Positions 11,797-45,871 of a stretch of DNA of 64,000 bases are shown one piece after another; within the stretch, counting starts at the first letter, position 1; the number at the start of each line of letters is the position of its first letter. The DNA comes from Chryseobacterium gleum (GTDB taxonomy: Bacteria; Bacteroidota; Bacteroidia; Flavobacteriales_D; Sanyastnellaceae). Position numbers and translations under genes: made by a program. A model generated the notes under the pieces. The model did not search any database. It was given only the letters and a program-made list of their open reading frames with translations, and had not been told where the DNA came from. The DNA is taken from the NCBI GenBank assembly GCA_945874695.1, contig CAMCHP010000003.1:1-64000 (forward strand). The letters run 5' to 3'.

Positions 11797-13037
11797 GCGA
11801 TCAAGTTTACAAGTTCGCGTGTACGTTGGCCTAAAGTCAACTGCTCAAGCGGGAAATCAGCATTGAAAACGTAGGTGCCCGTTGCCAAATCGCGCACCAT
11901 GCGCTCAAAGTCTTCAACGCTATTAATTATGCTGCCCAAGCGGTTGCGCTCAATGAATTGCGCCACATGCCCTTGCGGGCCGAAGTACATCAGCGGTTTT
12001 CGAAAAGGCAAGAACTCGAAAAACTTCGTGGTGAGGTAATCTTTGTTATGGTCAGCAAGAAAGATGATGATGGCAGCTGCCTGATTGACCTCTTTGAAAA
12101 TACCCTTGCCGATGACGCCGCTGAAATGGAGGTGTTCGCCGAGTGCGTCAAAATGATGCTGATACTGGGCATGCGGTGTGAAAATACGCAATTGTACAGA
12201 CCTTGAATTTTGTGCGTTGTAGTGTTGCAAGGCGTTGCTTAAGAGCGCAAACTCGGTTTCCAAGCCGAGGTACAAGCTGCCACCGTAAACCAGGTTTAGC
12301 TGAGGTGTAGAAACACCTGCAAGGGTTGAATCGAGAAATGCACTTACATCGTCTACATCGTAAGAATGGGCGAGCACCTCGAATCGCGCAATCGGGGTAT
12401 TGGTTGCCGTACTTTTGATCTCATCAAGCAAGAATTCGTTCGGACAGGTGACCACATCGGCATGCTTAAAGATAAAGTCTTGCTTCGCAATTTCGGCTTG
12501 AAGTTGGGCCTCGGAGAGGTTGCGCATGCCGTAATTGGGTGCGTTGAGCCAGGGGTCGCGGTAGTCGGCCAAGAGACGTATATGCGGGTATTTTTGCTTC
12601 ACTTTGGCTGCATAGTAGAGCAAATTGAATGGTGCACCGGTAGCCAGAATTGCGGTCACCTGCAGGTTTTCAATGAGGTGGCAGGCCTTCTGGGCAAAGC
12701 TCTTTTCCCATCCAATGGCTACATCGTAAAGGGTTCCGTTTTCTTTGCGCCTCAATCGGCGGATGTTGATGCGGTATTTCAGTTTCTCCCACAGGTTACG
12801 TGGTCCGTGTGAAATTTCACGCGGGTACACACGGGGCAACGAATGGATGGTGATGTGTGAATGATTCAACTCGTCCATCCAGCCGGAAGGCTGATCACCC
12901 GAAACCGGGTCAGCTTTGATCACATGCACATGATGCCCCATTGCTGCGAGTGCTTTGGCAAATTTCGCCCAGCGTCGTCCGCCAATTCCTGAATTGGGCG
13001 GAAAGTCGTAGCAAGCAATGATGAACGTTTCAGCCAT
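11793..13037 (-). CDS. Glycosyltransferase, GT4/WbuB-like
   Basis: A 414-residue GT-B protein. The start at MAETFIIACYDFPPNSG is preferred because 25 upstream codons (MCRCRCMPSS and on) overlap the end of the aminotransferase gene and are unlike the family. The N-terminus continues GIGGRRWAKFAKALAAMGHHVHVI, as in WbuB-type GT4 enzymes; DYLTTKFFEFLPFRKPLMYFG near residue 355 holds the donor-binding glutamate loop. It begins 8 bases inside the upstream gene. A palindromic element lies at 12875-12898, encoding DQPSGWMDE near residues 48-56. Confidence 0.85.
   Translation of the reverse strand: MAETFIIACYDFPPNSGIGGRRWAKFAKALAAMGHHVHVIKADPVSGDQPSGWMDELNHSHITIHSLPRVYPREISHGPRNLWEKLKYRINIRRLRRKENGTLYDVAIGWEKSFAQKACHLIENLQVTAILATGAPFNLLYYAAKVKQKYPHIRLLADYRDPWLNAPNYGMRNLSEAQLQAEIAKQDFIFKHADVVTCPNEFLLDEIKSTATNTPIARFEVLAHSYDVDDVSAFLDSTLAGVSTPQLNLVYGGSLYLGLETEFALLSNALQHYNAQNSRSVQLRIFTPHAQYQHHFDALGEHLHFSGVIGKGIFKEVNQAAAIIIFLADHNKDYLTTKFFEFLPFRKPLMYFGPQGHVAQFIERNRLGSIINSVEDFERMVRDLATGTYVFNADFPLEQLTLGQRTRELVNLIA
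12875..12898 (-). repeat. Dispersed palindromic element, copy 4 (in GT gene)
   Basis: On the minus strand: GTGATC, arm AGCC, loop TTCC, arm GGCT, GGATGG. The 5' T-run is lost but the arms stay complementary and the 3' flank is exact. The host gene reads it as GDQPSGWMD. Confidence 0.65.
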
Positions 13038-14127
13038 TGAACCGTTGAATGACGTCAGCGACGTACTGTTGTTGTTCTTCGGAGAGCTCGGCATACATCG
13101 GCAGCGACACAATGCGCGCGCAAGCGGCTGCAGCTACTGGGAAATCGGCGCTTGCATGTTTGAATTTTGCATAGCACGGCATCAAAGGTATGGGTGTTGG
13201 ATAGTGAACCGCATGTCCGACGTTGTGATCGGTGAGGTGCTTCATGAAAGCTGTTCGGCTTTCGGTTTGCACCACGTAGAGGTGATACACATGTTCACGT
13301 TCTTCAGGGGTAAAAGGGAGGGTAAGCCCCGAAGCTTGCAAAAGCGTGTTGTACCGAGCGGCATTGCGCTGGCGTTCAGCTGTCCAGAGTGGTAAGTAGG
13401 GGAGCTTGGCGTTCAAAATGGCCGCTTGCAAGGTGTCGAGTCGCGAGTTGCGCCCTTCGATTTGATGATCGTGCTTTTTGGGTTGACCATGGTTTGCGAT
13501 CATTCGGATGTGATCAGCGAGTTCAATGTGGTCGGTTACAACCGCCCCAGCATCGCCGTAAGCACCTAAGTTTTTACCCGGATAAAAACTGAAGCTGGCA
13601 GCCACACCGAATGTGGCAATGTTTTGTTGCTTGATGCGCGCGCCGTGCGCTTGCGCGCAGTCTTCAATGACGAAAAGACCGTGTTTTTCTGCGATTTCCA
13701 TGATCCGCGGCATGTTTGCAGGGCACCCGTAGAGGTGCACGGGCATAATGCCTTTTGTGCGCGGTGTGATGCGCTCTTCGATCAATTCCGGGTCAATGGT
13801 ATAGGTTTTGTCAATGTCTACAAACACGGGTGTTGCACCGCGTGTTCCGACGACCTCAGCGGTTGAGATCCAGGAGAGGGCGGGAACGATAATTTCATCT
13901 CCGGCTTGAACGCCCAAAGCGTCAAGGATCATTTCGAGGGAATCCGTTCCATTCGCACAGGCGATGGTATGGGCGACCTCCGTGTAGTTCGAAAAGTTGC
14001 TTTCGAAGTTTTTGATGCGTTCGCCCCCGATGAAAGCAGTATCGGCAATTACACCGGCAATTGCGGCGTCGATTTCGGTGCGGTAGCGCAGATATTGCGC
14101 GTGCAGATCAACAAAGGGTACGTTCAT
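13030..14127 (-). CDS. DegT/DnrJ/EryC1 sugar aminotransferase (WbpE-like)
   Basis: A 365-residue PLP enzyme of the sugar aminotransferase class. MNVPFVDLHAQYLRYRTEIDAAI is the usual start; SFYPGKNLGAYGDAGAVVTD near residue 186 contains the PLP-binding lysine. Next to a WbpB-like dehydrogenase and a WbpD-like acetyltransferase, it most likely transfers an amino group to C3 of a 3-keto UDP-GlcNAcA-type sugar, as WbpE/WlbC do. That assignment rests on context; the family also aminates C4 keto sugars. Overlaps neighbours by 4 and 8 bases. Confidence 0.88.
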   Translation of the reverse strand: MNVPFVDLHAQYLRYRTEIDAAIAGVIADTAFIGGERIKNFESNFSNYTEVAHTIACANGTDSLEMILDALGVQAGDEIIVPALSWISTAEVVGTRGATPVFVDIDKTYTIDPELIEERITPRTKGIMPVHLYGCPANMPRIMEIAEKHGLFVIEDCAQAHGARIKQQNIATFGVAASFSFYPGKNLGAYGDAGAVVTDHIELADHIRMIANHGQPKKHDHQIEGRNSRLDTLQAAILNAKLPYLPLWTAERQRNAARYNTLLQASGLTLPFTPEEREHVYHLYVVQTESRTAFMKHLTDHNVGHAVHYPTPIPLMPCYAKFKHASADFPVAAAACARIVSLPMYAELSEEQQQYVADVIQRFNG

Positions 14128-14585
14128 GGACGCAGTTTTTTGGCAGGATTACCGGCATAAATGCCAGGTTCAATAATATTTTTAGTGACAACCGCCCCGG
14201 CACCAATGACCACGTTGTCACAGATTTCAACGGGCAAAATGGTCGCATTGCTGCCAATTGAAACATGGTTACCGATGCGGGTGGATTTCCATTTGCTGGC
14301 ATCGCCTCCGGCGGGTTTTCCGTCGCTGAACAGGTCGTTGATGAACATCACGCCGTGACCAATGAAGCAATCGTTGCCGATGGTGACCAACTCGCAAATG
14401 AAGCTGTGTGACTGAATGCGCGTGCGGTCTCCGATTTGAACGCCCTTTTGAATTTCGCAAAAGGGTCCGACAAAGCAGTTATTACCCAAAATGCATTCAT
14501 ACAAGTTCGAGGGTTCAACGAGTGTGCAATTGTTTCCAAAAGAAACCTCGCGGATAGCAGCTTGAAATCGACGCGGATCAGGCAT
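14124..14585 (-). CDS. Hexapeptide-repeat N-acetyltransferase (WbpD-like)
   Basis: A 153-residue left-handed beta-helix protein. The repeats are evident (GNNCTLVEPSNLYECILGNN, then VGPFCEIQKGVQIGDRTRI, then IGNHVSIGSNATILPVEICDN and VVIGAGAVVTKNI), and the end GIYAGNPAKKLRP is standard for sugar N-acyltransferases. In context it should acetylate the 3-amino group made by the neighbouring aminotransferase, like WbpD/WlbB. Overlaps both neighbours. Confidence 0.88.
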   Translation of the reverse strand: MPDPRRFQAAIREVSFGNNCTLVEPSNLYECILGNNCFVGPFCEIQKGVQIGDRTRIQSHSFICELVTIGNDCFIGHGVMFINDLFSDGKPAGGDASKWKSTRIGNHVSIGSNATILPVEICDNVVIGAGAVVTKNIIEPGIYAGNPAKKLRP

Positions 14586-15594
14586 GGCTTACGGCTTGGT
14601 AAATGTATTCGATGGCTGCGATAGATTTCATGCCTTCAAAGCCGTCCACGGTTTCATTGCCTTCATGGTGCAAATGCGAAATCAAGGCCTTGACTACTTT
14701 GTCGTGGTTTGAGCTAGTTCCCTGGTATTTTCCATAAGCATTGGGTTTATCAGAAAAGTCGATGCCTTCTGGAAGGGGGTAGCCTTCGACGTCCCAAAAC
14801 TCAATTTTATTGAGGTATTTGCCTCCAATTTTGATGGTGCCGCGTTCGCCGATGATGGTTATGCTGCCTTCGAAATTTTTATTGTAAACGCAGGTTGTCC
14901 AAACCAGTGAACCGATTGTGCCCGAAGAAAAATTGAGAATGGCTACTCCGCTATCTTCGGTTTCGATGTTATGGTTTTGGGTTTCGGCGTGCCCTTGTGC
15001 GCTAACCACATCACCGCACCACCAAATGAGGAGGTCGATGAAATGGCTGGCTTGGGTAAAGAGTGCCCCGCCTTCGAGCGCCTTGTTGCCGCGCCACGGC
15101 GAATCGTCGTAATAGCCTTGGTAGCGGTTCCACAAGATGTCGCATTTGATCATGAAGATCTTACCCAGCATGCCTTTGTCGATCACATCTTTGGCCAATC
15201 GCACAGGCACATTGTGTCGATTTTGCTTCACTACCCACAGGCGTTTACCGGTGCGTTTAGCTGCAGCGTTCATGCGTTCGCAATCGGCTACGGTGAGGGC
15301 CATGGGTTTTTCAACAAGTACGTCGAAACCGGCTTCCAGCGCTTCAATGGCCATATCGGCATGCAAGGCGTGAGGTGTTGCAATGCTGATGATGTCGGCT
15401 TCTACCTCGTTCAGCATTTGGCTGTAATTGGTGAATAAGGGCAAGCCCTCATAGAGTAACGCTTGTTCGCGTCCGGTGACTTCGTTGTTGTCACAAATCG
15501 CGACCACTTGTGCACGCTCTTCGGCGTCAATTACAGCAATGTGTCGCTTTCCGATGCTTCCACAGCCAACGATGGCGAATTTGGTAAGTTTCAT
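14578..15594 (-). CDS. Gfo/Idh/MocA sugar dehydrogenase (WbpB-like)
   Basis: A 338-residue NAD-dependent oxidoreductase. FAIVGCGSIGKRHIAVI is the Rossmann dinucleotide loop; VLVEKPMAL near residue 94 is the family EKP motif; EGGALFTQASHFIDLLIWW carries the active-site His. With the WbpE-like and WbpD-like genes directly downstream, it fits the C3 oxidation of UDP-GlcNAcA in the pathway to UDP-2,3-diacetamido-uronic acid. The UDP-GlcNAc 6-dehydrogenase (WbpA) that would supply the substrate is not in the window. Confidence 0.88.
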   Translation of the reverse strand: MKLTKFAIVGCGSIGKRHIAVIDAEERAQVVAICDNNEVTGREQALLYEGLPLFTNYSQMLNEVEADIISIATPHALHADMAIEALEAGFDVLVEKPMALTVADCERMNAAAKRTGKRLWVVKQNRHNVPVRLAKDVIDKGMLGKIFMIKCDILWNRYQGYYDDSPWRGNKALEGGALFTQASHFIDLLIWWCGDVVSAQGHAETQNHNIETEDSGVAILNFSSGTIGSLVWTTCVYNKNFEGSITIIGERGTIKIGGKYLNKIEFWDVEGYPLPEGIDFSDKPNAYGKYQGTSSNHDKVVKALISHLHHEGNETVDGFEGMKSIAAIEYIYQAVSHA

Positions 15595-16769
15595 GCGTGG
15601 TAGGCCTTGCTTTTGCTATCGCGTCGAATACCTAAAGTGCGTTTTGCCAGCCGGGTGAGTGGCGAAATGGCACGCATGATGTTTTCGTGATAGCGGTAGT
15701 GTTTGGTGATGTAGCTGTCGAAATCGGTGTGCTGTTTAATGGGCAGTGCCATGATTTCATCGAATTCTTTGGGTGACAGCCCGAATTTTTTCAGCACAAA
15801 TGCACGGTCTTCATTGAGCATTTGTTCTTCGTATATGGGTTTTTCGAGTTCGATCAGTGCTTCTTCCCGGGTAATTTGTTGGCTGGCAATCAGCGAAGAA
15901 AGGTGGGCTTTACGTTTGTCAACCCCGAATTTTTCGGGCAGGATGTAGCCTTGATAGAAGCGTGTGATGATGCTTTCGAAGTGTTTGCCGCCGTAATCGC
16001 GCCAGCCTAATTCTTTGGTGATGATGGCTTTGGCCTCATCTTTGTTGTAGTCGATGTAGTTGAGCGGTTGAATGCTTTGCATACGCTTCACCAAATCGAA
16101 GTACACTTTCTTCGAAAAACTCACATGTGGGAAGGTTTTTAGTTTAACCGTTCCAAATTTTTTATGGATTGACTTGATGTTGAGCCAATCGTATTTGTAC
16201 CATCGCCATGCTTCGGGCAGAATGCCTTCGGTGGTGATGTTGAAGCCGTTTAAAAGATAATTGATGTTGTACTTTTTGGCCAAGTCGTAGATCACTGCGA
16301 AAATTGCGTGATCACTAGTAAGTTCAAGATCAATAACGGATGCTTTCAGGAATGCGAGTTGTAGGTCACGAAACTCTTCCCAATCGATGACATGGGTGTG
16401 GAGGTCGTAACCACAATGATCGATGATGTTATTGATGTTCTGATTGGCGATTTCTGAGTTCCACCCATTGTCAAGATGAACGAGAAGCGGGCGGAGGTTA
16501 TACTTTTTACAGAGGTAAACCATATAGGTACTGTCAACCCCACCACTGATGCCGGTAATGCAATCATACTTTTTTCCTTTTCCTTCTTCGCGAATGCGGT
16601 TGAAAAGGATTTCGAGCTCGCGTTGGCCTTGTTCACCACCAATGAAGAAGCGATCAACACGGGCTTGATAAAGGTGGTAATAATTGCACACCCCATGGTC
16701 GTCGAAGCGGATTCCCGGATCGGCGATTGTATCCATCACAGTTTTCGTACAAATGCGGTACTTCTCCAT
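15591..16769 (-). CDS. N-acetyl sugar amidotransferase (WbpG/PseA-like)
   Basis: A 392-residue PP-loop ATPase: ITGISGGVDSTYMVYLCKKY near residue 83 is the adenylating loop. Family members use ammonia made by a partner HisH/HisF pair to turn an N-acetyl group into an acetamidino group; both partners follow the same strand directly upstream (16855-18220). Odd point: relatives begin with two CxxC pairs, but here they read CTKT and CNYY, so the second cysteine of each pair is missing and the usual zinc site is probably lost. Overlaps the WbpB-like gene by 4 bases. Confidence 0.88.
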   Translation of the reverse strand: MEKYRICTKTVMDTIADPGIRFDDHGVCNYYHLYQARVDRFFIGGEQGQRELEILFNRIREEGKGKKYDCITGISGGVDSTYMVYLCKKYNLRPLLVHLDNGWNSEIANQNINNIIDHCGYDLHTHVIDWEEFRDLQLAFLKASVIDLELTSDHAIFAVIYDLAKKYNINYLLNGFNITTEGILPEAWRWYKYDWLNIKSIHKKFGTVKLKTFPHVSFSKKVYFDLVKRMQSIQPLNYIDYNKDEAKAIITKELGWRDYGGKHFESIITRFYQGYILPEKFGVDKRKAHLSSLIASQQITREEALIELEKPIYEEQMLNEDRAFVLKKFGLSPKEFDEIMALPIKQHTDFDSYITKHYRYHENIMRAISPLTRLAKRTLGIRRDSKSKAYHA

Positions 16770-16854
16770 TAGGTTCTCTCCCGAGATAGCGTTAATCGTA
16801 GTTGGTCAAAAGTACCCAACAAAGCTAAGAAATCTGATGGGAGCGAAGGTCGAT

Positions 16855-17613
16855 TTAAGGAAGAATATCCGTTGGTGTGGGGTAAGAAATGAGAATGGAT
16901 TGGGTATTTCCGCCGCGATAGACGAAAATACTGCCTGCCGCCGCGGCAGACGCTCCCGTTTCTACAATGGTATTTAACATGTCATCGACAGATGCTGCGC
17001 CTCCTGCGGCAATAACTGGAATTGAAACGGCCTGGGCCACGGTGCGGGTGAGCATTCGGTCGAGTCCGCTGAACGTGCCATCGCGATCAATGCGGTGCAC
17101 CATGAGTTCGCCAGCGCCGCGCGCTTCAAGTGATTGGGCCCATTCAACGATGCCCGCTTTCACACGCCTACTTCCTGATTGCGTGAATGCACGTTCGCCG
17201 TGAAGCAGCGTTTTTTTTACGTCAATTGAAACGACAACGCTCTGATTGCCATAGGTATTGGCGATTTCGGTGATGAGCTCTGGCTTTTCGTAAGCGGCGG
17301 TGTTCAAGATCACTTTTTCAACGCCGCAGGCGAAAACACGTTTCGCATCATCGAGGGTTTGAATGCCGCCACCATAACCTAAGGGGGAGAAGCATTCGCT
17401 GGCCATTTCATGGAGGTAGGCAAAGTTCGGCTTGCGTTGTTCACGGCTGGCGCTGATGTCGAGCACGATGATTTCATCGACCATCTTATCATTAAAGATT
17501 TTCAGGGCATTGATCGGGTCGCCGATGTATTTCGGGGCTGAGAACCGAACTGTTTTCACAAGTTTTCGACCCTCCATGGTGAGAATAGGGAGTATGCGCG
17601 GACGTTGGCTCAT
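16855..17613 (-). CDS. HisF-like amidotransferase partner
   Basis: A 252-residue TIM-barrel protein related to imidazole glycerol-phosphate synthase subunit HisF. SPLGYGGGIQTLDDA, SIDVKKT and PVIAAGGAAS are the phosphate- and substrate-site loops. The equivalent of HisF Asp11 is Thr (PILTMEGRKLVKTV instead of PCLDVKDGRVVKG), while the second catalytic Asp (VVSIDVKK) is kept. That loss, plus the neighbouring WbpG-like gene, argues that it only channels ammonia for sugar amidination and does not make histidine. The start MSQRPRILP follows the HisH stop by one base; an ATG four codons earlier (17625) is also possible. Confidence 0.88.
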   Translation of the reverse strand: MSQRPRILPILTMEGRKLVKTVRFSAPKYIGDPINALKIFNDKMVDEIIVLDISASREQRKPNFAYLHEMASECFSPLGYGGGIQTLDDAKRVFACGVEKVILNTAAYEKPELITEIANTYGNQSVVVSIDVKKTLLHGERAFTQSGSRRVKAGIVEWAQSLEARGAGELMVHRIDRDGTFSGLDRMLTRTVAQAVSIPVIAAGGAASVDDMLNTIVETGASAAAAGSIFVYRGGNTQSILISYPTPTDILP

Positions 17614-17614
17614 G

Positions 17615-18220
17615 TCACCAGTCAATGAAGTTTTTCATTAGAGCCAAACCGAACACATGGCTTTTCTCGGGGTGGAACTGCACCCCAGCGATATTGTTTT
17701 TTGCAATTCCAGCAGCAAAGGGATTGCCGTGGTGCGCAAGGCAGAGTATGTCTTCAGGTTGCTTACACCGCATGAAATAGCTGTGCACAAAGTAGTACCG
17801 TTGATTGACCGCTGTATTTTTGAATAAGGCATGGTTTTGCCGCACTTCGATTCCATTCCAGCCCATGTGCGGAACTTTGAGTTGTGCTGGAAGTGCGGTG
17901 AACTTTACCGTTTCTGCGGATATAAGCCCCAAACCGGCACAATTATTCTCTTCACTGTGTTCGGTGAGTAGTTGTGCACCGAGGCAAATGCCAAGCAATT
18001 TCACACCAGCCGCTGTTCGCGCCTTGATGAGGCTGTCAAGTTGGGCATTACGCAGGTTCTCCATGCCTTTTCCAAAAGCGCCTACCCCTGGTAAGATGAG
18101 TTTTTCTGCTTCGGAAAGTTGTTGATGATCTGCGGTGATGAGCGCATCGGCCCCAGCTTTTCGAAGCATGTTTTTCACCGATTCAGGGTTCCCTAAGCCA
18201 TAGTCAACGATTGCAATCAT
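17615..18220 (-). CDS. HisH-like glutaminase
   Basis: A 201-residue class I glutamine amidotransferase. IVDYGLGNPESVKNML starts the domain, LLGICLGAQLLTEHS near residue 80 has the nucleophilic Cys, and GVQFHPEKSH near residue 185 gives the His-Glu pair. It should hydrolyse glutamine and pass ammonia through the HisF-like barrel to the WbpG-like enzyme. Lies between that gene and a putative glycosyltransferase, with 4-base overlap upstream. Confidence 0.92.
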   Translation of the reverse strand: MIAIVDYGLGNPESVKNMLRKAGADALITADHQQLSEAEKLILPGVGAFGKGMENLRNAQLDSLIKARTAAGVKLLGICLGAQLLTEHSEENNCAGLGLISAETVKFTALPAQLKVPHMGWNGIEVRQNHALFKNTAVNQRYYFVHSYFMRCKQPEDILCLAHHGNPFAAGIAKNNIAGVQFHPEKSHVFGLALMKNFIDW

Positions 18221-36679: not shown

Positions 36680-39115
36680 CTAACTCTTTCCGTTCTTCTG
36701 TTGCGATTTCCCTTTTGTTTCTTTCAGATCATCGCCATAGCCCCCATAACCGTAGCCACCATAGCCATAGCCATAGCCATAGCCATAGCCATAACCGTAG
36801 CCGTAGCCGTATTTATAAGCGTATTTGCCATAGTAATACTTCCACCTCTTTTGCTTAATGTTGTTCAGCAGTAGCGAAAGATTCATCAATTTACTATGTT
36901 CGAGCACTTCTTCCAAGTACCTCAAACCTTGCTTGGTAGCCTTTTCAGTGTTCAAAACAAAGATACCTGTATTTGCCAACTTCATTAATACCAATGCGTC
37001 GGTGATCAACATCACAGGCGGGGTGTCAAGCAAAATATAGTCGTATTGTTTTCGAAGAGAATCGAATAATAAACCTACACGGTCGCTCAATACCAACTCT
37101 GATGCGTTTGGAGGTACAGGTCCTGCCGTCACCACCTCCAAATTTTCAATTTGGGTCGGAAGAGTACACGCTGAAATGTCGGTTTTCCCAATCAAAATCG
37201 TCGATACACCCGAGATGTTCTCAAAGCCAAAATTTTTGTGAACTTTTGGTTTATGCAAGTCAAAATCAAGCAAAATCACCTTCTTCCCGGCCCGTGCCAA
37301 AACCGATGCGAGGTTGGTCGAGGTAAACGTTTTTCCCTCTCCAGGGTGCAACGAAGTAACCAAAATTACCTTCGAACCTTCTTCTTTCAGAATGTACTGC
37401 AGGTTGGTGCGTATCGATCGAAATGCTTCACTGACATTTGATCGTGAGCTGTTAATTATCGCTATGGGCTCATTTTCAATTTCGACATAATGCGGAACGC
37501 CCCCAATAACAGGTAAACGCGTCACCGCTTTCAATTCACGGGTGTTCTCGATTTTCTCAAAGAACACCAAGCGAATCAAGCCAATTACTGCTGCGATTAG
37601 GAGGGCAAGTCCAACGGCGATGGCCATGAAGCGTTTTTTGTCAGGACCAACTACGCCCAGCAACCGTGACTCTTCGACCATTGAAGCTTCGGGCACAATC
37701 GCTGCCCGTGCAATTACAGTACTTGCCTTTTTTTCCAGCAAGAACATATACAACCCCTCATTTACCTTCAACTTTCGGTCAATGCCCAATATATCGCGCT
37801 GTGAGCGCGGAATCTGCTGCAATTTACCTTCAACCTTTCGGATTTGCCCGTCTAAATCACGCATCCGCGATGATATCGCCCCACGTGTATCTACTGTATA
37901 CCGATATATACCCAAGCTCACGGTGCTAATAAGTGAGTCAAGACGTATAATATTGCGGTTGGTCGGTTCAAACTGAGACAACTCATCTGCACGCTGTACT
38001 TTCAAATTGTACAACTCGCTGAGCTGGTTCTGCAAAAGCAAGTCTTCCTCAAACATGTAAATCGCTGGCGGCAAATCAGCCTTCATGTTGCCTTCGCGCA
38101 AAAAATTCTCCATTGATTTGATCGACTGAAGCCGCAATTCCAACTTCCGGCGTTCCTCGTCGATGTCAACCAACGTGTTAAAGAGCTCATTTTGCTCCCG
38201 GTTCAAATCAAGAATCTGATGCCGATCTCGGAAGTCTTGCATCATAAATTCAAGTGAATCCATGATCTCTTCCAATTCGTTCAACTGTTTGTCTATGTAG
38301 CGCTGCGTATTCTCGTTCACTTGAATACGCGACAATTGCGTGTAGTCGATATATACAGTTGACAGGGTGTCAAGAAAGCGCTTAGCCCGCTCAGGCACTT
38401 CATCTTGAATTTCGAGGTTCAAAATGCTCGTGTAATCAACGTTCTTGATGCTCAATTTAGCTTTGTAGCGATTGACCAGCCAATCATGTGTGCGCACCTG
38501 AAACATGAAGTCTTGCTGGCGAATCGTCTCAATGGTTGACGGGTTGATCAGGTCAGTCTTATTGATCGTAATGACGTAATCAACATCCTCGACCTTTTCG
38601 CCAAACCGATGCGTTTTGCGCACTTTTTGGCCATTCAATTCGTACAATAAATCATACGAATCGAGGTCAATAACCTTAATGCCGATCGGTAGATTATACA
38701 TCCGACTGGCAAAGTGATTGCGGTCGATTTGGATGTCAAGGGCGTGTATACGATCAACCGGATCGGTGCGAACCCGACCTACCAAATAATAGGAGATCCC
38801 ATAATCAAGCTTGTGAAGGGCCTTCGAAATAATGTCGTACGACGATAATACGCGCTGCTGGTTCGTGACGTCGGCCATCAGCGAGTAGTAACCAAACGAT
38901 GAATAAATCTGGCTCTGGTAATCGTAGGTCTCTTGCTGACGTAATAAGATCTCTGACTTGGCGGCGTAAATGTCGTTCTGACGGTGCGTGTAAACCAACG
39001 CAATAAAGTAGCCGATAAGCGGGAAAAGCAGCAGTAAATACCAGTTCTTACCGATGAATTTCAGTACAGGCCTGATGTCGTCAGGATCGAGAATCGATGT
39101 CTTCTTCTCCGCCAT
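36680..39115 (-). CDS. wzc: Wzc-type polysaccharide co-polymerase / BY-kinase
   Basis: An 811-residue inner-membrane protein controlling polysaccharide chain length and export. A Wzz-like N-terminus with a membrane helix near residues 25-42 is followed by a long periplasmic coiled-coil part, a second helix near 490-510 (MAIAVGLALLIAAVIGLI), and a bacterial tyrosine kinase domain: Walker A SLHPGEGKTF near 585, Walker A' VILLDFDLHKPK near 615, Walker B YILLDTPP near 690. The C-terminal tail is the usual autophosphorylated tyrosine cluster, here a long YG repeat. It is the first gene of the leftward glycan locus and has its own promoter. No Wza-type outer-membrane exporter is nearby. Confidence 0.93.
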   Translation of the reverse strand: MAEKKTSILDPDDIRPVLKFIGKNWYLLLLFPLIGYFIALVYTHRQNDIYAAKSEILLRQQETYDYQSQIYSSFGYYSLMADVTNQQRVLSSYDIISKALHKLDYGISYYLVGRVRTDPVDRIHALDIQIDRNHFASRMYNLPIGIKVIDLDSYDLLYELNGQKVRKTHRFGEKVEDVDYVITINKTDLINPSTIETIRQQDFMFQVRTHDWLVNRYKAKLSIKNVDYTSILNLEIQDEVPERAKRFLDTLSTVYIDYTQLSRIQVNENTQRYIDKQLNELEEIMDSLEFMMQDFRDRHQILDLNREQNELFNTLVDIDEERRKLELRLQSIKSMENFLREGNMKADLPPAIYMFEEDLLLQNQLSELYNLKVQRADELSQFEPTNRNIIRLDSLISTVSLGIYRYTVDTRGAISSRMRDLDGQIRKVEGKLQQIPRSQRDILGIDRKLKVNEGLYMFLLEKKASTVIARAAIVPEASMVEESRLLGVVGPDKKRFMAIAVGLALLIAAVIGLIRLVFFEKIENTRELKAVTRLPVIGGVPHYVEIENEPIAIINSSRSNVSEAFRSIRTNLQYILKEEGSKVILVTSLHPGEGKTFTSTNLASVLARAGKKVILLDFDLHKPKVHKNFGFENISGVSTILIGKTDISACTLPTQIENLEVVTAGPVPPNASELVLSDRVGLLFDSLRKQYDYILLDTPPVMLITDALVLMKLANTGIFVLNTEKATKQGLRYLEEVLEHSKLMNLSLLLNNIKQKRWKYYYGKYAYKYGYGYGYGYGYGYGYGYGGYGYGGYGDDLKETKGKSQQKNGKS
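36761..36790 (-). repeat. Hexanucleotide repeat coding the wzc tyrosine tail
   Basis: Five exact tandem copies of ATAGCC on the plus strand (TATGGC, Tyr-Gly, in the gene sense), flanked by degenerate copies (ATAACC, GTAGCC). Being 6 bases long, slippage would add or remove Tyr-Gly pairs without shifting the frame. Confidence 0.85.
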
Positions 39116-39133
39116 GGATAGTGGTCAAGGCAA

Positions 39134-39141
39134 CAAAGATA
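39134..39141 (-). promoter_or_regulatory. -7 promoter box of wzc
   Basis: TATCTTTG on the minus strand is an exact TAnnTTTG and ends 18 bases before the wzc ATG. It would drive wzc and probably the glycan genes beyond. No clear TTG -33 element was found. Confidence 0.6.
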
Positions 39142-39214
39142 ATTTATTTAGTGGTGAAAACTGGCGTGACGTATTTCGTAGAAAATGACGAGCCAATGAA
39201 TCAATCGATTTGTT

Positions 39215-39222
39215 TATCTTTG
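39215..39222 (+). promoter_or_regulatory. -7 promoter box of the exosortase group
   Basis: TATCTTTG on the plus strand, exact TAnnTTTG, ends 18 bases before the ATG at 39241. It is the same octamer and the same spacing as the divergent wzc promoter, about 80 bases away. Confidence 0.6.
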
Positions 39223-39240
39223 ACAAAATTCACGATCGCT

Positions 39241-39462
39241 ATGTGCAAGAAATGGATGTGCCGCACGCTAATTGTTGCGTTTTTTGCTGTGCCGCTGAGT
39301 GCTTTCGCTCAAGATGCGCCTTTTCCTGGTGATGACCTCGAATGTGATGGCCCACCCTTTGCACCTGTTTGTCCGATCGATGGCGGCGTCAGCTTCTTAA
39401 TTGCTGCCGGCATTGCCTTGGGTGGAAAGAAAGCCTACGACCTCTCGCGTAAAAACGCATGA
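39241..39462 (+). CDS. Small PID-CTERM-like exosortase substrate
   Basis: A 73-residue protein. After a signal peptide (LIVAFFAVPLSAFAQDA) comes a short acidic, Cys-containing segment (FPGDDLECDGPPFAPVC), then PIDGGVSFLIAAGIALGGKKAYD, in which PIDGG, a hydrophobic helix and a basic tail form a tripartite sorting signal. This matches the PID-CTERM type of Bacteroidota exosortase signals. The mature protein is therefore little more than the signal itself. Earlier in-frame ATGs would overlap the promoter box, so 39241 is chosen. Its stop overlaps the exosortase start in ATGA. Confidence 0.8.
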   Translation: MCKKWMCRTLIVAFFAVPLSAFAQDAPFPGDDLECDGPPFAPVCPIDGGVSFLIAAGIALGGKKAYDLSRKNA

Positions 39463-40022
39463 TCAAACTGCTGAAGCGCAACCCGGTGTTGCGTTTTTTG
39501 CTTCTCGGCACCCTTGCTTATCTCACGTGGTACATCGCCTACGAATTCTGGCTTAAACCCAACTCCGTGCTTGATGAGTGGGTCATTCAGCGCATTGTCA
39601 ACGGAACCCGATTCGCTCTCAAAAGTTTCGGCTACACCTTGCTTGAACCGCTTCAAACTCTCGGCTTCGAAAACCGAGTAGGCATTCACGGGTCGTCGGG
39701 CGTAATTGTGGGGGCGCCTTGCGACGGACTTGTGCTCTTCGCCCTCTTTACTTCCTTTGTCATCGCATATCCCGGCCCATTGAAGCATAAAGCGTGGTTC
39801 ATTCCGCTGGGAGTCTTTAGCATTCACTGCATCAATGTGGCCCGCGTGGTGGCACTAGCGATCACCGTGAACATCAACCCCGAGTGGCTCGCGTTCAACC
39901 ACGACTACACGTTCACCATACTAGTCTACAGCTTCGTATTCTTGCTTTGGTACATTTGGGTGCAGCGTTTTGCGCACAGCCATCCTGCCGTTAGGCAGAA
40001 AGAAAAAGAACCTGCACGATGA
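39459..40022 (+). CDS. Exosortase family protein
   Basis: A 187-residue polytopic membrane cysteine protease/transpeptidase. The three catalytic residues of the family are in place: Cys88 in IVGAPCDGLVLF, Arg129 in INVARVVAL and His148 in AFNHDYTFTI. Family members cleave C-terminal sorting signals such as that of the protein encoded directly upstream and transfer the rest to an unknown acceptor, often in loci making extracellular polysaccharide. The C-terminal HPAVRQK (residues 175-181) is encoded by a palindromic element. Overlaps both neighbours by 4 bases. Confidence 0.9.
   Translation: MIKLLKRNPVLRFLLLGTLAYLTWYIAYEFWLKPNSVLDEWVIQRIVNGTRFALKSFGYTLLEPLQTLGFENRVGIHGSSGVIVGAPCDGLVLFALFTSFVIAYPGPLKHKAWFIPLGVFSIHCINVARVVALAITVNINPEWLAFNHDYTFTILVYSFVFLLWYIWVQRFAHSHPAVRQKEKEPAR
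39981..40002 (-). repeat. Dispersed palindromic element, copy 7 (exosortase C-terminus)
   Basis: On the minus strand: CTTTC, arm TGCC, loop TAAC, arm GGCA, GGATG. Antisense to the exosortase gene, which reads it as HPAVRQK, the same frame as the PAVQAEN copies. Confidence 0.85.
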
Positions 40023-40561
40023 AGCTGACGGCGCTGAGCATTTTCGTGTGGATCGCAGGCTTTATTGCGCTCGGTTTTGTGCAAGAACGTGCCAAAGTGA
40101 GCTTAAATTACTACCTTGATCGCGGCGCGCTTGAACCGCAATTTTTTGAATTTCCGCCTGAACGGCGGGATGCATGGCTCCAAGCACACGCCATTGATGC
40201 GCCCTATGACTATTACTACAACCATGCGCGGGTAAAATGGTACGATCACCTGTCACGCAAACAGCTCGAGTTGCTCAAATGGATGTACGCAATTATTTTC
40301 ATTGTGCTGCATGTGCTGCTGTCGCATCTCGCACTCAAGTGGTGGAAGGCGCCACGTGAAATGTTGGTTACTATATATATAGGTACCGTGGTGGTAATGC
40401 TGCTCAGTTTATGCTTCTTTGCGGCCTCACGCGTTGGTGCAGGAGATGCTGCCTACAACGTCGCCCGGAAATTACTTGGTTTTATTCAATCACCCTTGCC
40501 GCTGGTGCTGCTGCTTTTTACGCGCCGCCTCGGAATTCACACTTCAACATCGAGATTATGA
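40019..40561 (+). CDS. Exosortase-associated membrane protein
   Basis: A 180-residue protein with four hydrophobic segments (about residues 5-20, 90-110, 118-138 and 158-172) and an N-terminal soluble loop containing tyrosine-rich APYDYYYNHARVKWYDHL. No enzyme motif is seen. Exosortase genes of Bacteroidota are often followed by such a small membrane protein (the XrtF- and XrtX-associated families); the tight overlap with the exosortase gene supports the same pairing. A palindromic element codes FPPERRDAW near residues 45-53. Confidence 0.7.
   Translation: MKLTALSIFVWIAGFIALGFVQERAKVSLNYYLDRGALEPQFFEFPPERRDAWLQAHAIDAPYDYYYNHARVKWYDHLSRKQLELLKWMYAIIFIVLHVLLSHLALKWWKAPREMLVTIYIGTVVVMLLSLCFFAASRVGAGDAAYNVARKLLGFIQSPLPLVLLLFTRRLGIHTSTSRL
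40151..40172 (+). repeat. Dispersed palindromic element, copy 8 (exosortase partner)
   Basis: On the plus strand: TTTC, arm CGCC, loop TGAAC, arm GGCG, GGATG. Sense to the host gene, read as FPPERRDA. It is only 149 bases from copy 7. Confidence 0.8.
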
Positions 40562-41037
40562 GCTTACAGGCACTCCCTGACCATGCGCGTGTGTGGATTT
40601 ATACAGCTGATCGTGAAATTACACCGGCTGAAATAGACCACACTCAGTTGTACATGTCGAACTTCATCAGCAATTGGGCGGCTCATGGAGCAGGTTTGAA
40701 AGCAGGGGTCGAAGTGATGCACCAAAGGTATTTGGTGCTAGCAGCCGATGAAGCGTGGGTTGCCGCTTCGGGATGTTCAATTGACAGCTCAGTTCGCGCG
40801 ATAAAAATGCTTGGCACAGACTTAGGGATCGATTTCTTCAATCGCACCTGGGTCGGATTTCAAGAGCGCGAACGCTTACAGTTTACTCCTATACACGACT
40901 TCTGGGCGCGCAGGAAAGCAAACCTTGTAACCGATGATACCCGCGTTTTTAACACGCTGGCCAATACCTTGGGTGACTTGCGCCGTGAAGCGCTACTTCG
41001 GTTTGCCGATAGCTGGCATGCCGAGATGTGGAGATAG
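40558..41037 (+). CDS. Small conserved protein, function unknown
   Basis: A 159-residue soluble protein starting MSLQALPDHARVWIYTADREI. The motif ADREITPAEIDHTQLYMSNFISNWAAHG is not given a function; similar small proteins in flavobacteria are often named ABC transporter ATPase by error, but there is no Walker motif here. It overlaps the stop of the exosortase partner in ATGA, so it is probably in one message with the exosortase group, though these proteins also occur away from exosortases. Confidence 0.75.
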   Translation: MSLQALPDHARVWIYTADREITPAEIDHTQLYMSNFISNWAAHGAGLKAGVEVMHQRYLVLAADEAWVAASGCSIDSSVRAIKMLGTDLGIDFFNRTWVGFQERERLQFTPIHDFWARRKANLVTDDTRVFNTLANTLGDLRREALLRFADSWHAEMWR

Positions 41038-41494: not shown

Positions 41495-44400
41495 ATGAAG
41501 AGTATCTTTATCCGATGTAGCTTCGCTCTACTAACACTTGCCTTTATGGCATTTGGAGCGAGTTCTTCTTATGCTCAATGTACCTATGCTGGTACGAATT
41601 ATGGCAACGTAACTCCAGCTGGAGTGGGTGCGACGTTCACCCAAACGTTTGTATGGGGCGGCGACCACTATAGCCTTGACGTTGTTGCAGGGTCGGTGTA
41701 CCGTGTTTCTTTCTGCGCAGCAGAAGGGGGTGTGACTGCTTTCGATACCCAAATCACTGTTTTCAACTCTGCCCTTCAGGTTGCAGCCGGAGGTTACAAC
41801 GATGATTTCTGCGGTGCAGGATCGCAGGTGGAATTCACAGCTACTGAGACTGCCACTTGGACCATCCAGGTGAATCAATACTTCTGCGCGGTGAACAGCG
41901 GTCCAAATGCGACAATGGTGGTTCGGTATGTGTCTTCAGCTGGCTTGCCCGACGAAGGATGCACCGATCCGACTGCGTTGAATTACGACCCAGCAGCAAT
42001 CACCGATGATGGCTCATGCATCGTCCCTGATTGTGTTGATGCGCCAGAGCAGTGGAGCTACTGTTACCCAAATGGGGACAACAGCACCTTCATTTGGAAC
42101 CCTACCAACGCTGGTGACAACATCATCATCGAATTCCTTCAAGGTTCGATCGAGTCTAATACTTGGGACGACATTGTAATTACTGATGGTCCTGGTGGAG
42201 CTGTTTTGTACACTAACGGTGCCGTTACCACGAACTTAGCTGGTTTGATTGTAGAAACTGTTTCAGGAAACGGATTGGTGATCACCATTACTTCTGATAG
42301 TTCTGTTTCATGTGGTTCAGGTTCTTTCTTGCAAATGATTGCCGATGTATATTGTGCGACTGAAGCGGTTCTGGGTTGTACTGATCCAGCAGCTTCAAAC
42401 TATGATCCAGCAGCGACGATCGACGATGGGTCATGTGTTTTCTGTAGCGGTACTTTAGTTACGCTTGATATGTTCGATGCTTTCGGCGACGGGTGGAATG
42501 GAGCAACTTACAACTTTGTTGATGGCAATGGCGTAACAGTTGCAAGCGGCACAATGACGGGTAGCTTCGCGCAAAACGTAATCTGTCTTGATAATGGCTG
42601 CTACACTTTCAACGTTGGAGGTGGTACTTTTGATGGTGAGATTAGCTGGACTTTGTCTAACATTATCGGTGGAAGCCTTTCGGGTGGAGCTCCTTCAAGC
42701 CAGTTGGTGCAAGTTGGCGCAACGTGTGTGCCAGGCTGTACTGATCCTACTGCATGTAACTTCGACGCTTCGGCAGACTTCAACTTTGGCTGTGACTTCG
42801 TTTCATGCGCAGGTTGTACTGATCCTTTCGCAACAAACTACGATCCAGCGGCGACGCTTGACGATGGTTCTTGTATTCTTTGTAATGCAGGTGAAATCCT
42901 TCTATTCATTGACATGACCGATACTTTTGGTGATGGCTGGGACGGTGCGTTATGGTCTATCGTAACAACTGGAGGTACTTTCATTGACTCTGGTGATATT
43001 GATAACGCCGCAGAAGGCGACGGTGCTTCATTCGGTACTGACGCAGTTTGTTTGGCTCCAGGTTGCTATTTGTTCAATGTTACAGGAGGGCTCTTCCCTG
43101 CTGAGGTTGGTTGGTCACTTACTGACCAGTTGGGCAACTTCTATGGTGCGCAGTCTTCGCCAAACGGTGTAGCGGTTAACTATCCAATCGACTTCGGCTT
43201 CACAGGTATCTGTGACTTCCCAGGTTGTACCAACCCAATCGCGATAAACTTCTTGCCATCTGCGACCATCGACGATGGTTCATGTTTGTTGCCTCCAGCG
43301 AACAACGATGTGTGTGACGCTGAAGGTATTACATGTGGTATTCCTGCAACAGGTACTACTGAATTCGCAACTGACAACGAAGGTTTGATCGGAACATTCT
43401 GCGGTACGCCGAACATCTCTTCTCCAGGGGTATGGTACGAGTTTAACGCGGCTGCTGATCAACAAGTAACTGTAAGCACTTGTACTTCATTAGGTGGTGA
43501 TACCAAGATCCACGTATTCGCTGGTGCGCCTGATTGCACCCAGTTGGTATGTATCGGTGGTAACGATGATGGTTGTGGTCTTGGATCATTGTTGTCTTCT
43601 ATCACATTTACTGCTCAAACGGGCTTCAACTACTTCATTTTGGTTTCTGAATTCGGTGTAGGTACTGGTATTGACTTTACCTTGACCGTTGATTGCCAGT
43701 CTTGCGACGCAATCCCAACCAACGATGACTGTGTTGACGCATTGCCACAGGTTTCTGGTATTCCTTTCTCTGGATCGACTTGCTGCTCAAACCCATCTGA
43801 CGCGCCTAACTTCGCTGCAGGTTTCGGTACAGCTTACGACCAGTTCTTCGTATTCAACTCTTCAGATTACGACACATTCTTTTTCGAAGTTGTAAACACA
43901 GGCGGCACCAACGTTGGTTTGATGATCTACGACGGCGATTGCAACACCCTAGATGATGTAGCAGGTTGTGTCGTTGCAGGTACATGTGCAGGCTCAATCG
44001 AGGCTTTCCTGCCCTTGACTCCAAACACCGACTATTACTTCGCAGTATTTACTACCGATGCAGCTGGTTGTGGTGATTACACATTTACAACAACGGGTAT
44101 CTATCTCGGTTGTACTGACCCAACTGCGGCGAACTTCGATCCGATTGCCAATCAAGACGATGGCACTTGTGATTACACAGGTGTGACTCAAGCGAATGAC
44201 GACTGTGCAAATGCTGAGGCAATCGCATGCGGAGATACAGTAGAAGGTTCTACTGGCGGCGCAACTACAAGTGTTGAGGCTGTGGCTTGCGCAGGTGGTG
44301 GCGTTACTTGTGCTGCTGCACCAGGCTTCGGAGTTGATACATCGAGCGCTTGCTACGAAGAAGTTGTATTGAACGACCCATTCTGCTGTAACAACATTTG

Positions 44401-45871
44401 GGACGCGTTCTGCCAAGGTGCGTACGATGCATGTGCTGGCGGTGGTGCTGGTGATGTTTGGTACCAGTTCACAGGTACGGGTGACCTCGTTACTGTAACC
44501 ACTTGTGGTTCTGTAATCGGGGCAGACCTTACCGTGTACGAAGGCGCTGACTGTGCTTCTGCATTGACGTGTGTTACGGGCTTGGAAGGTTACGAAGTAT
44601 GTGATTTCTTTAGTGCTGATGACAGCGCAATCACCTTCATCTCGGGTGTTGGTGTGAACTACTACTTTGTAGTGGCCGGTGAAGCTGGATCATTTGTTCT
44701 GGACGTTACTTGTACACCAATTGTTGAGGGTTGTACCAACCCAGTTGCTTACAACTACAATGCCGCGGCAAACTTCGACGATGGAACTTGTGACTTCTTC
44801 TCTGGAACATGTGTTGGTGCTGGTACACCAGTTCAATTGAACATGTTCGATAGCTTCGGCGACGGATGGGATAACACAACCTACACCATCACCAACGGTG
44901 CTGGAGATGTAATCGCAACTGGTAACATTGACAACGCGTTGTACAGCGAAGACGAAAACAACTTCGTAGGTCCAGAATTCGGATTTGACTTGATCTGTCT
45001 CCAAGACGGTTGCTACACCATTACCATTGCTGACGGATTCTTCCCTGGTGAAGTATCTTACGACTTGGTAGACGAGTTTGGCAACTCATTGGCTTCTGGT
45101 GCGGGCTTTGGCTCAAACAGCTTCACCATTGGTGGTGCGGTGTGTGGCTGTACTGATTCAGGTGCTTGTAACTTTGATCCAGCTGCAACAGACAACGACG
45201 GTTCATGTGAATTTATCACATGTGCAGGTTGTACTGATGCTGCTGCTTGTAACTTCGATCCTTCAGCTACCATCGATGATGGATCTTGCTGTGCTGACAA
45301 CTGTGTGACCATCCAAATGAGCGATTTATTCGGTGATGGTTGGAACGGAGCAAGCTACCAGATCTTCACAATTGACGGATTGCTAGTTGCAACTGGCGAC
45401 TTGAACAACGCTCAAGTTGGTAACGGTACTTCAACTGGAACAGACGTGATCTGTTTGGCTGATGGCTGCTACTTCATCTCTGTACCTGGTGGATTCTTCC
45501 CGGGTGAAGTGTCTTGGAACCTCTTCGGTATCAACGGTGCACCACTTTCAGGTGGTGGCAACGCTGGTCTTGATGGTAGCTTGATCTTCTCTGTAGGTGC
45601 AGGTGCTTGTGTGGTAGGATGTACAGAGCCTGTGGCTTGTAACTACGACCCCGCTGCGAACATCTCTGATTGTGAGTCTTGTGAATACAGCTCATGTTTA
45701 GGTTGTACTTATGCCGGAGCGACGAACTTCGATGCTGCTGCTGTAATTGACGATGGTTCATGTTTGTTCGATCTCTCGAACCCATGTCCTGCTGACTTGA
45801 ACGAAGACGGCATCGTGAACACAACTGACCTCTTGTCGTTCCTCGGAGCGTTCGGGACCATTTGTAACTAA
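41495..45871 (+). CDS. Large secreted Cys/Asp-rich repeat protein
   Basis: A 1458-residue secreted protein with a signal peptide (ALLTLAFMAFGASSSYAQ). About eleven copies of a short module of the form GCTDPxAxNYDPxAxxDDGSC alternate with larger domains. One larger domain, starting FGDGWNGATY and ending CYxFxVxGGxF, occurs four times (near residues 320, 470, 1120 and 1270). PPC-like domains with NDDCxxAxP starts also occur. The C-terminus, DLNEDGIVNTTDLLSFLGAFG, is dockerin-like with a possible calcium loop and is not a standard T9SS type A domain. Asp/Cys-rich modules suggest calcium- and disulphide-stabilised structure; adhesion or matrix function is inferred. Confidence 0.85.
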   Translation: MKSIFIRCSFALLTLAFMAFGASSSYAQCTYAGTNYGNVTPAGVGATFTQTFVWGGDHYSLDVVAGSVYRVSFCAAEGGVTAFDTQITVFNSALQVAAGGYNDDFCGAGSQVEFTATETATWTIQVNQYFCAVNSGPNATMVVRYVSSAGLPDEGCTDPTALNYDPAAITDDGSCIVPDCVDAPEQWSYCYPNGDNSTFIWNPTNAGDNIIIEFLQGSIESNTWDDIVITDGPGGAVLYTNGAVTTNLAGLIVETVSGNGLVITITSDSSVSCGSGSFLQMIADVYCATEAVLGCTDPAASNYDPAATIDDGSCVFCSGTLVTLDMFDAFGDGWNGATYNFVDGNGVTVASGTMTGSFAQNVICLDNGCYTFNVGGGTFDGEISWTLSNIIGGSLSGGAPSSQLVQVGATCVPGCTDPTACNFDASADFNFGCDFVSCAGCTDPFATNYDPAATLDDGSCILCNAGEILLFIDMTDTFGDGWDGALWSIVTTGGTFIDSGDIDNAAEGDGASFGTDAVCLAPGCYLFNVTGGLFPAEVGWSLTDQLGNFYGAQSSPNGVAVNYPIDFGFTGICDFPGCTNPIAINFLPSATIDDGSCLLPPANNDVCDAEGITCGIPATGTTEFATDNEGLIGTFCGTPNISSPGVWYEFNAAADQQVTVSTCTSLGGDTKIHVFAGAPDCTQLVCIGGNDDGCGLGSLLSSITFTAQTGFNYFILVSEFGVGTGIDFTLTVDCQSCDAIPTNDDCVDALPQVSGIPFSGSTCCSNPSDAPNFAAGFGTAYDQFFVFNSSDYDTFFFEVVNTGGTNVGLMIYDGDCNTLDDVAGCVVAGTCAGSIEAFLPLTPNTDYYFAVFTTDAAGCGDYTFTTTGIYLGCTDPTAANFDPIANQDDGTCDYTGVTQANDDCANAEAIACGDTVEGSTGGATTSVEAVACAGGGVTCAAAPGFGVDTSSACYEEVVLNDPFCCNNIWDAFCQGAYDACAGGGAGDVWYQFTGTGDLVTVTTCGSVIGADLTVYEGADCASALTCVTGLEGYEVCDFFSADDSAITFISGVGVNYYFVVAGEAGSFVLDVTCTPIVEGCTNPVAYNYNAAANFDDGTCDFFSGTCVGAGTPVQLNMFDSFGDGWDNTTYTITNGAGDVIATGNIDNALYSEDENNFVGPEFGFDLICLQDGCYTITIADGFFPGEVSYDLVDEFGNSLASGAGFGSNSFTIGGAVCGCTDSGACNFDPAATDNDGSCEFITCAGCTDAAACNFDPSATIDDGSCCADNCVTIQMSDLFGDGWNGASYQIFTIDGLLVATGDLNNAQVGNGTSTGTDVICLADGCYFISVPGGFFPGEVSWNLFGINGAPLSGGGNAGLDGSLIFSVGAGACVVGCTEPVACNYDPAANISDCESCEYSSCLGCTYAGATNFDAAAVIDDGSCLFDLSNPCPADLNEDGIVNTTDLLSFLGAFGTICN

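Follow-up and report, generated by a model that had tools for sequence, protein, structure and literature searches.

A putatively dedicated XrtX exosortase and PID-CTERM peptide encoded beside wzc in a Flavobacteriales genome

The system closest to the locus described here is defined in NCBIfam by three families, the exosortase XrtX (NF046081), the PID-CTERM protein (NF046080), and the XrtX-associated membrane protein, XAP (NF046082). XrtF and the exosortase F system-associated protein (Fjoh_1448/1449) are likewise a Bacteroidota exosortase and its small membrane partner, with known deletion phenotypes. F. johnsoniae strains deleted for xrtF or the partner gene form no zorbs and make less biofilm, defects shared by mutants of the T9SS, the attachment complex, and a sugar aminotransferase (porU, porV, porZ, sprA, and a DegT aminotransferase gene) (PMC10936215). 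In the PEP-CTERM/EpsH (XrtA) and cyanoexosortase B systems, an exosortase is linked to Wzx/Wzy-type polysaccharide genes and acts with a tripartite C-terminal signal, and proteins are modeled as bridging polysaccharide and outer membrane (PMC12188702). C-terminal sugar conjugation in Bacteroidota is known from the PorU sortase of the type IX secretion system (T9SS), whose linking sugar derives from the Wbp/Vim pathway; the authors of that work propose that the exosortase acceptor or product may be a sugar modified with an amino acid (PMC7468200). The substrates of archaeosortase A end in a lipid (PMC7157517). Small tripartite signals with an invariant Cys, and an enzyme with a single dedicated target encoded beside it, are found in the MYXO-CTERM/myxosortase and MrtJ/JDVT-CTERM systems (PMC11980579). 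Full-text search of a literature library turned up nothing relevant on XrtX or PID-CTERM, and for no XrtX was cleavage, attachment, or localization found reported.

The window analyzed here, a stretch of 64,000 nucleotides, carries at 39241-40561 on the plus strand three genes with 4-nt overlaps, which encode a 73-residue PID-CTERM protein, an XrtX exosortase, and a four-helix membrane partner. The cassette diverges from wzc (36680-39115, minus strand) across a 125-bp spacer that fills the gap between the flanking genes (39116-39240). An earlier sequence-only reading had placed the genes in the same way, and its coordinates, reading frames, overlaps, and wzc divergence were all borne out by a sequence check. 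A fourth gene at 40558-41037, absent from the list of that reading, overlaps the partner gene by 4 nt. All three proteins match the three NCBIfam families in the same gene order. Chance is ruled out because the substrate and exosortase matches exceed curated cutoffs and the same gene order recurs in dozens of genomes, and the cassette belongs to a family already named in NCBIfam (PID_CTERM, XrtX, and XrtX-associated membrane protein). Within the spacer, TATCTTTG at 39215-39222, 18 bp 5' of the substrate start codon, fits the Bacteroidota -7 element TAnnTTTG; no clear -33 element was seen.

The same reading had described the three products as a protein made up almost entirely of a signal peptide and a PIDGG signal, an exosortase with Cys88, Arg129, and His148, and a four-helix membrane protein, and all three descriptions held. 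The substrate (73 aa, 39241-39462, plus strand) matches NF046080 with 36.6 bits against a membership cutoff of 26, and the match covers residues 45 to 67, at the C terminus of a secreted-type protein. It consists of a signal peptide of residues 1 to 23 (MCKKWMCRTLIVAFFAVPLSAFA, 39241-39309) with predicted cleavage at A23/Q24, a predicted mature part of 21 residues from Q24 to C44 (QDAPFPGDDLECDGPPFAPVC, 39310-39372) with C35 and C44 in C-x8-C spacing, and a tripartite sorting signal (39373-39441) in which PIDGG is followed by a hydrophobic helix and a basic tail with KK. The predicted cleavage site agrees with the Bacteroidetes Q-rule, by which signal peptidase leaves an N-terminal Gln (PMC5837995). 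Pfam gave no family on the substrate, so the C-terminal domain of T9SS cargo (Por_Secre_tail) was not found on it. Membership in the PEP-CTERM/XrtA system was rejected, as the motif is PIDGG instead of PEP and the XrtA model was not among the matches.

The exosortase (187 aa, 39459-40022, plus strand) scores 190.7 bits with NF046081 (cutoff, 170). Its C88, R129, and H148 form the exosortase triad and are invariant across 37 aligned XrtX homologs, and the AlphaFold2 model of this multi-pass membrane protein is helical with a mean pLDDT of 93.8. We rejected an identity as XrtF, since the score with the XrtF model TIGR04128 is 81.3 bits, below the cutoff of 90, and the XrtX model scores higher. 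Pfam gave no family name for XrtX, and neither sequence search nor fold search found a solved homolog. The partner (180 aa, 40019-40561, plus strand) has four hydrophobic segments and a confident all-helical AlphaFold2 model (mean pLDDT, 89.4). With 41.1 bits it misses the curated cutoff of 75 of NF046082, a cutoff that only 1 of 100 relatives passes; the same model is matched by 37 of 38 aligned homologs. Among 80 related loci a XAP match is present in 79, of which 57 pass a stricter position filter. The protein is homologous to the family and holds the same position, but is a diverged branch of it. TspO and similar Pfam matches to XAP were below cutoff, and fold search found no solved structure resembling it. 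From family membership we infer that XrtX cleaves PID-CTERM proteins; the two models leave the mechanism undecided because neither resembles a solved structure.

The genome (3.09 Mb, 97% complete) encodes one exosortase and one PID-CTERM protein, the latter found both by the NCBIfam model and by a profile built from the substrates of this order. No further PID-CTERM protein was found in the genome, the next match having an E value of 1.2 and lying inside an 876-aa frame. A genome search for other substrates was the check that the sequence-only reading had proposed, and the pair was not refuted as dedicated; as far as sequence can tell, XrtX and the PID-CTERM protein are a dedicated pair. Among 100 relatives, XrtX was found in 72 and a PID-CTERM match in 57, nearly always single and beside XrtX. 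Both were present in 56 of these genomes, XrtX alone in 16, PID-CTERM alone in 1, and neither in 27 (Fisher P = 3e-12); in the phylum the corresponding counts were 36, 4, 6, and 201 (Fisher P = 2e-32). Both P values are nominal, the genomes being related.

We then compared the substrates in 80 named related loci, mostly of Flavobacteriales, calling an adjacent substrate by a P-x-D motif pattern. It is kept in 66 of the 80 loci. The two cysteines that the earlier reading had singled out are conserved in the window's order: every one of the 66 adjacent substrates has a Cys no more than 5 residues ahead of P[IVL][DS], and in 64 another lies nearby (at least two Cys within 12 aa of the signal). 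The pattern demanded P-x-D and not Cys, so that the count is not circular, and the sequences counted are related to each other. Two forms prevail, CGxPFGxxC and C(W/F)PPPC-I, each followed by a near-invariant PIDGG and a helix ending in KK. The mature part is mostly 15 to 22 residues before PID and Gly/Pro-rich, with an aromatic residue between the two Cys (CWPPPC or CGxPFGxxC); in some relatives the substrates are larger and rich in Cys. Outside the order, 0 of 51 PID-CTERM proteins have a Cys in the 15 residues that precede the signal.

A Cys kept one to five residues before the signal would suit a lipopeptide, in which C44 is lipid modified and serves as the anchor, no disulfide forms, and XrtX then removes the helix. 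Such a route has been proposed for MYXO-CTERM and myxosortase, and an invariant Cys at a like position is needed for cleavage by myxosortase (PMC11980579). Lipidation of Cys as a general mechanism is weakened by the 51 proteins of other families, which do without the Cys and yet are paired with the same enzyme family. Furthermore, XrtX is no CPBP-type protease, and the second Cys, almost always present at spacings from C-x4-C to C-x8-C, fits a disulfide better. We consider this lipopeptide quite improbable.

The divergent neighbor wzc encodes a polysaccharide copolymerase/tyrosine autokinase (TIGR01007, 178.3 bits with a cutoff of 108; AAA_31). Its C terminus is a long YGYG repeat (YKYGYGYGYG...), extreme and of low complexity. 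Such Tyr-rich tails are of the kind that autokinases phosphorylate. Divergent wzc adjoins the cassette in 51 of the 62 loci with at least 3.2 kb of upstream flank, so the neighborhood noted in the sequence-only reading is conserved within the order; in our first locus set it was seen in 29 of 41 loci, from several families. The fourth gene, DS1 (40558-41037, plus strand), encodes a downstream soluble protein for which no NCBIfam or Pfam family was found. DS1 is a neighbor in 23 of 41 loci and lies beside wzc even without the cassette, and probably it belongs to the wzc side. Farther downstream, 41495-45871 encodes a 1,458-aa secreted protein that contains many GCTDPxAxNYDPxAxxDDGSC repeats, ends in a dockerin-like tail (NEDGIVNTTDLLSFLGAFG), and has no Pfam match; in 21 of 41 loci its homologs come after the cassette or DS1.

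The association with wzc has exceptions. In several relatives wzc is directly divergent from DS1 and the cassette is absent, one family (f4) has wzc orthologs at 45 to 47% identity and no XrtX, and in one genome (G042) the cassette is intact with wzc about 490 kb away. Within this order the association is thus genuine and ancient, but since wzc occurs without the cassette and the cassette away from wzc, it is not obligatory, and strict dependence of the cassette on wzc was rejected. The sequence-only reading had proposed that the peptide may be an acceptor, pilot, or sensor for glycan assembly. Its dedicated pair, its wzc neighbor, and its cysteines stand; against a strict role in glycan assembly speak the wzc orthologs in relatives with no XrtX or with XrtX elsewhere, and the genome with the cassette far from wzc.

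Outside the order, divergent wzc was found at XrtX in 0 of 20 sampled loci, one of which has wzc 2.6 kb downstream. A genome there can encode as many as six PID-CTERM proteins, mostly at scattered sites. In L073 to L142, 43 of 51 distinct PID-CTERM genes lie directly 3' of a large gene on the same strand whose product has a T9SS-type C terminus, as recognized by motif. Chance would put a few per cent of them there, because the genomes checked have only 18 to 122 T9SS-type C termini each. This position after T9SS cargo genes is a general rule for PID-CTERM proteins, one we found in no paper, and along with the missing divergent wzc it argues further against a strict glycan-assembly role. A similar arrangement may exist in the window's own family: in genus g5, XrtX and XAP follow an adenosylhomocysteinase gene and have no substrate beside them (L033, L037, L039, L047, and L048), and the substrate has likely been relocated beside large secreted-protein genes (L223, 6982-7344; L224, 6615-6974).

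These observations bear on two further explanations. In one, the position beside wzc is only inherited gene order, of no functional meaning, and the cassette serves the envelope in a general way connected with T9SS surface proteins. The sampled outside loci, the relatives with the cassette missing between wzc and DS1, and the g5 substrates next to large secreted-protein genes would all be expected from it. What it explains poorly is that divergent wzc outlasts the other neighbors, being kept in several families even at loci where neither DS1 nor the big secreted protein was found alongside, and we regard it as unlikely, though the strongest of the competing accounts. In the other, XrtX would be a protease only, and a Gln-initiated, disulfide-looped peptide would be set free in the periplasm or medium, to regulate Wzc or to signal between cells. 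The short, Gly/Pro-rich mature part with its aromatic residue between two Cys and the spacer common to the substrate gene and wzc are consistent with such a peptide. The studied sortase-like C-terminal systems, however, keep their substrates anchored, as in the lipid attachment by archaeosortase A (PMC7157517), the substrates of some relatives are larger and Cys-rich, and PID-CTERM genes elsewhere come after cargo genes and not wzc. Release of a free peptide therefore seems doubtful to us, and less probable than inherited gene order.

Sugar genes also occur next to XrtX. In 5 of the 20 outside loci (L261, L262, L265, L267, and L269), wbpE- and wbpB-like genes lie 0 to 3 kb upstream on the same strand, directly abutting in three of these loci, and wbpD-like genes were seen in L261 and L269. 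The sugar 3-dehydrogenase- and WbpE-type identities of these genes are backed by structure-sequence matches. The window has a similar set: WbpE-, WbpD-, and WbpB-like genes with N-acetyl sugar amidotransferase and HisF2/HisH-type genes (13030-18220, minus strand; WbuX, 296 bits; AglZ/HisF2, 322 bits) sit about 21 kb from the cassette, as context outside it. They are part of a Wzx/Wzy-type glycan cluster (13030-36648) with a NeuB-type synthase, cytidylyltransferases, and acetamidino-sugar genes (WbuX, HisF2, and HisH), whose content suggests synthesis of nonulosonic acid and amidinated diamino sugars.

What was observed directly is the order of the genes, their family membership, the conservation of the catalytic residues and of the substrate motif, and the one-to-one pairing; the conserved target peptide with its gene neighbors points to a peptide joined to a surface sugar or lipid. 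In the mechanism we favor, Sec would export the 73-aa precursor, signal peptidase I would remove residues 1 to 23 to leave an N-terminal Gln, and the C-terminal helix would, as in established families, keep the peptide in the inner membrane. XrtX, with Cys88 as nucleophile together with Arg129 and His148, and its presumed obligate partner XAP would cut at PIDGG. The resulting peptide of about 24 residues, probably with a C35-C44 disulfide, might then be passed to an acceptor in the envelope. The likeliest acceptor is a sugar or glycolipid made by the linked polysaccharide pathway, and it may be an amino sugar of the Wbp type. The product would be a very small surface adaptor that helps fasten polysaccharide, T9SS cargo, or both to the outer membrane, and no structural surface protein. 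Because of the lipid of archaeosortase A, the T9SS linking sugar, and the xrtF mutant phenotypes, this whole chain, ending in a sugar- or lipid-linked adaptor made by XrtX, is our best single guess, held tentatively and a little short of even. Against it are the scarcity of wbp-like genes near XrtX (5 of the 20 loci outside the order), the score of XAP under its family cutoff, and the wzc orthologs where XrtX is absent or elsewhere; the wbp-like genes of the window could serve the glycan alone. A more specific form of this adaptor mechanism is correspondingly speculative and, in our judgment, rather unlikely to hold in full: that the amino sugar to which XrtX joins the disulfide-looped, roughly 24-residue peptide is of the Wbp type, so that exosortase and T9SS have their sugar chemistry in common, and that in Flavobacteriales the peptide fastens either the polysaccharide that depends on Wzc or T9SS cargo to the outer membrane.

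A cassette of one enzyme, one partner, and a product of about 24 residues is among the simplest places to find an exosortase acceptor by intact-mass spectrometry, and the position of PID-CTERM genes behind T9SS cargo genes elsewhere, together with the wbp-like neighbors of some XrtX genes, offers a specific candidate for how exosortase sorting and the T9SS glycan anchor may be connected. Compared with the described systems, XrtF scores below its cutoff here and is without a known substrate (PMC12188702). The PEP-CTERM systems have many large substrates, in contrast to the single tiny one with PIDGG in the window. PorU is an outer-membrane enzyme of the gingipain family, whereas XrtX is an inner-membrane exosortase whose substrate has no T9SS domain; the likeness to the PorU system lies in wbp-like genes, which occur in the window and also next to XrtX at some loci. 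The enzymes of the MYXO-CTERM and MrtJ systems belong to an unrelated family, and the Cys of PID-CTERM proteins is not conserved outside the window's order. The NCBIfam XrtX system itself has up to six substrates per genome elsewhere; here there is one, beside XrtX and with two Cys before the signal, with a divergent wzc and a partner under the family cutoff. The system is thus mostly known, and the value of this locus lies in its simple one-substrate form, its order-specific two-Cys motif, and the associations with T9SS and Wbp.
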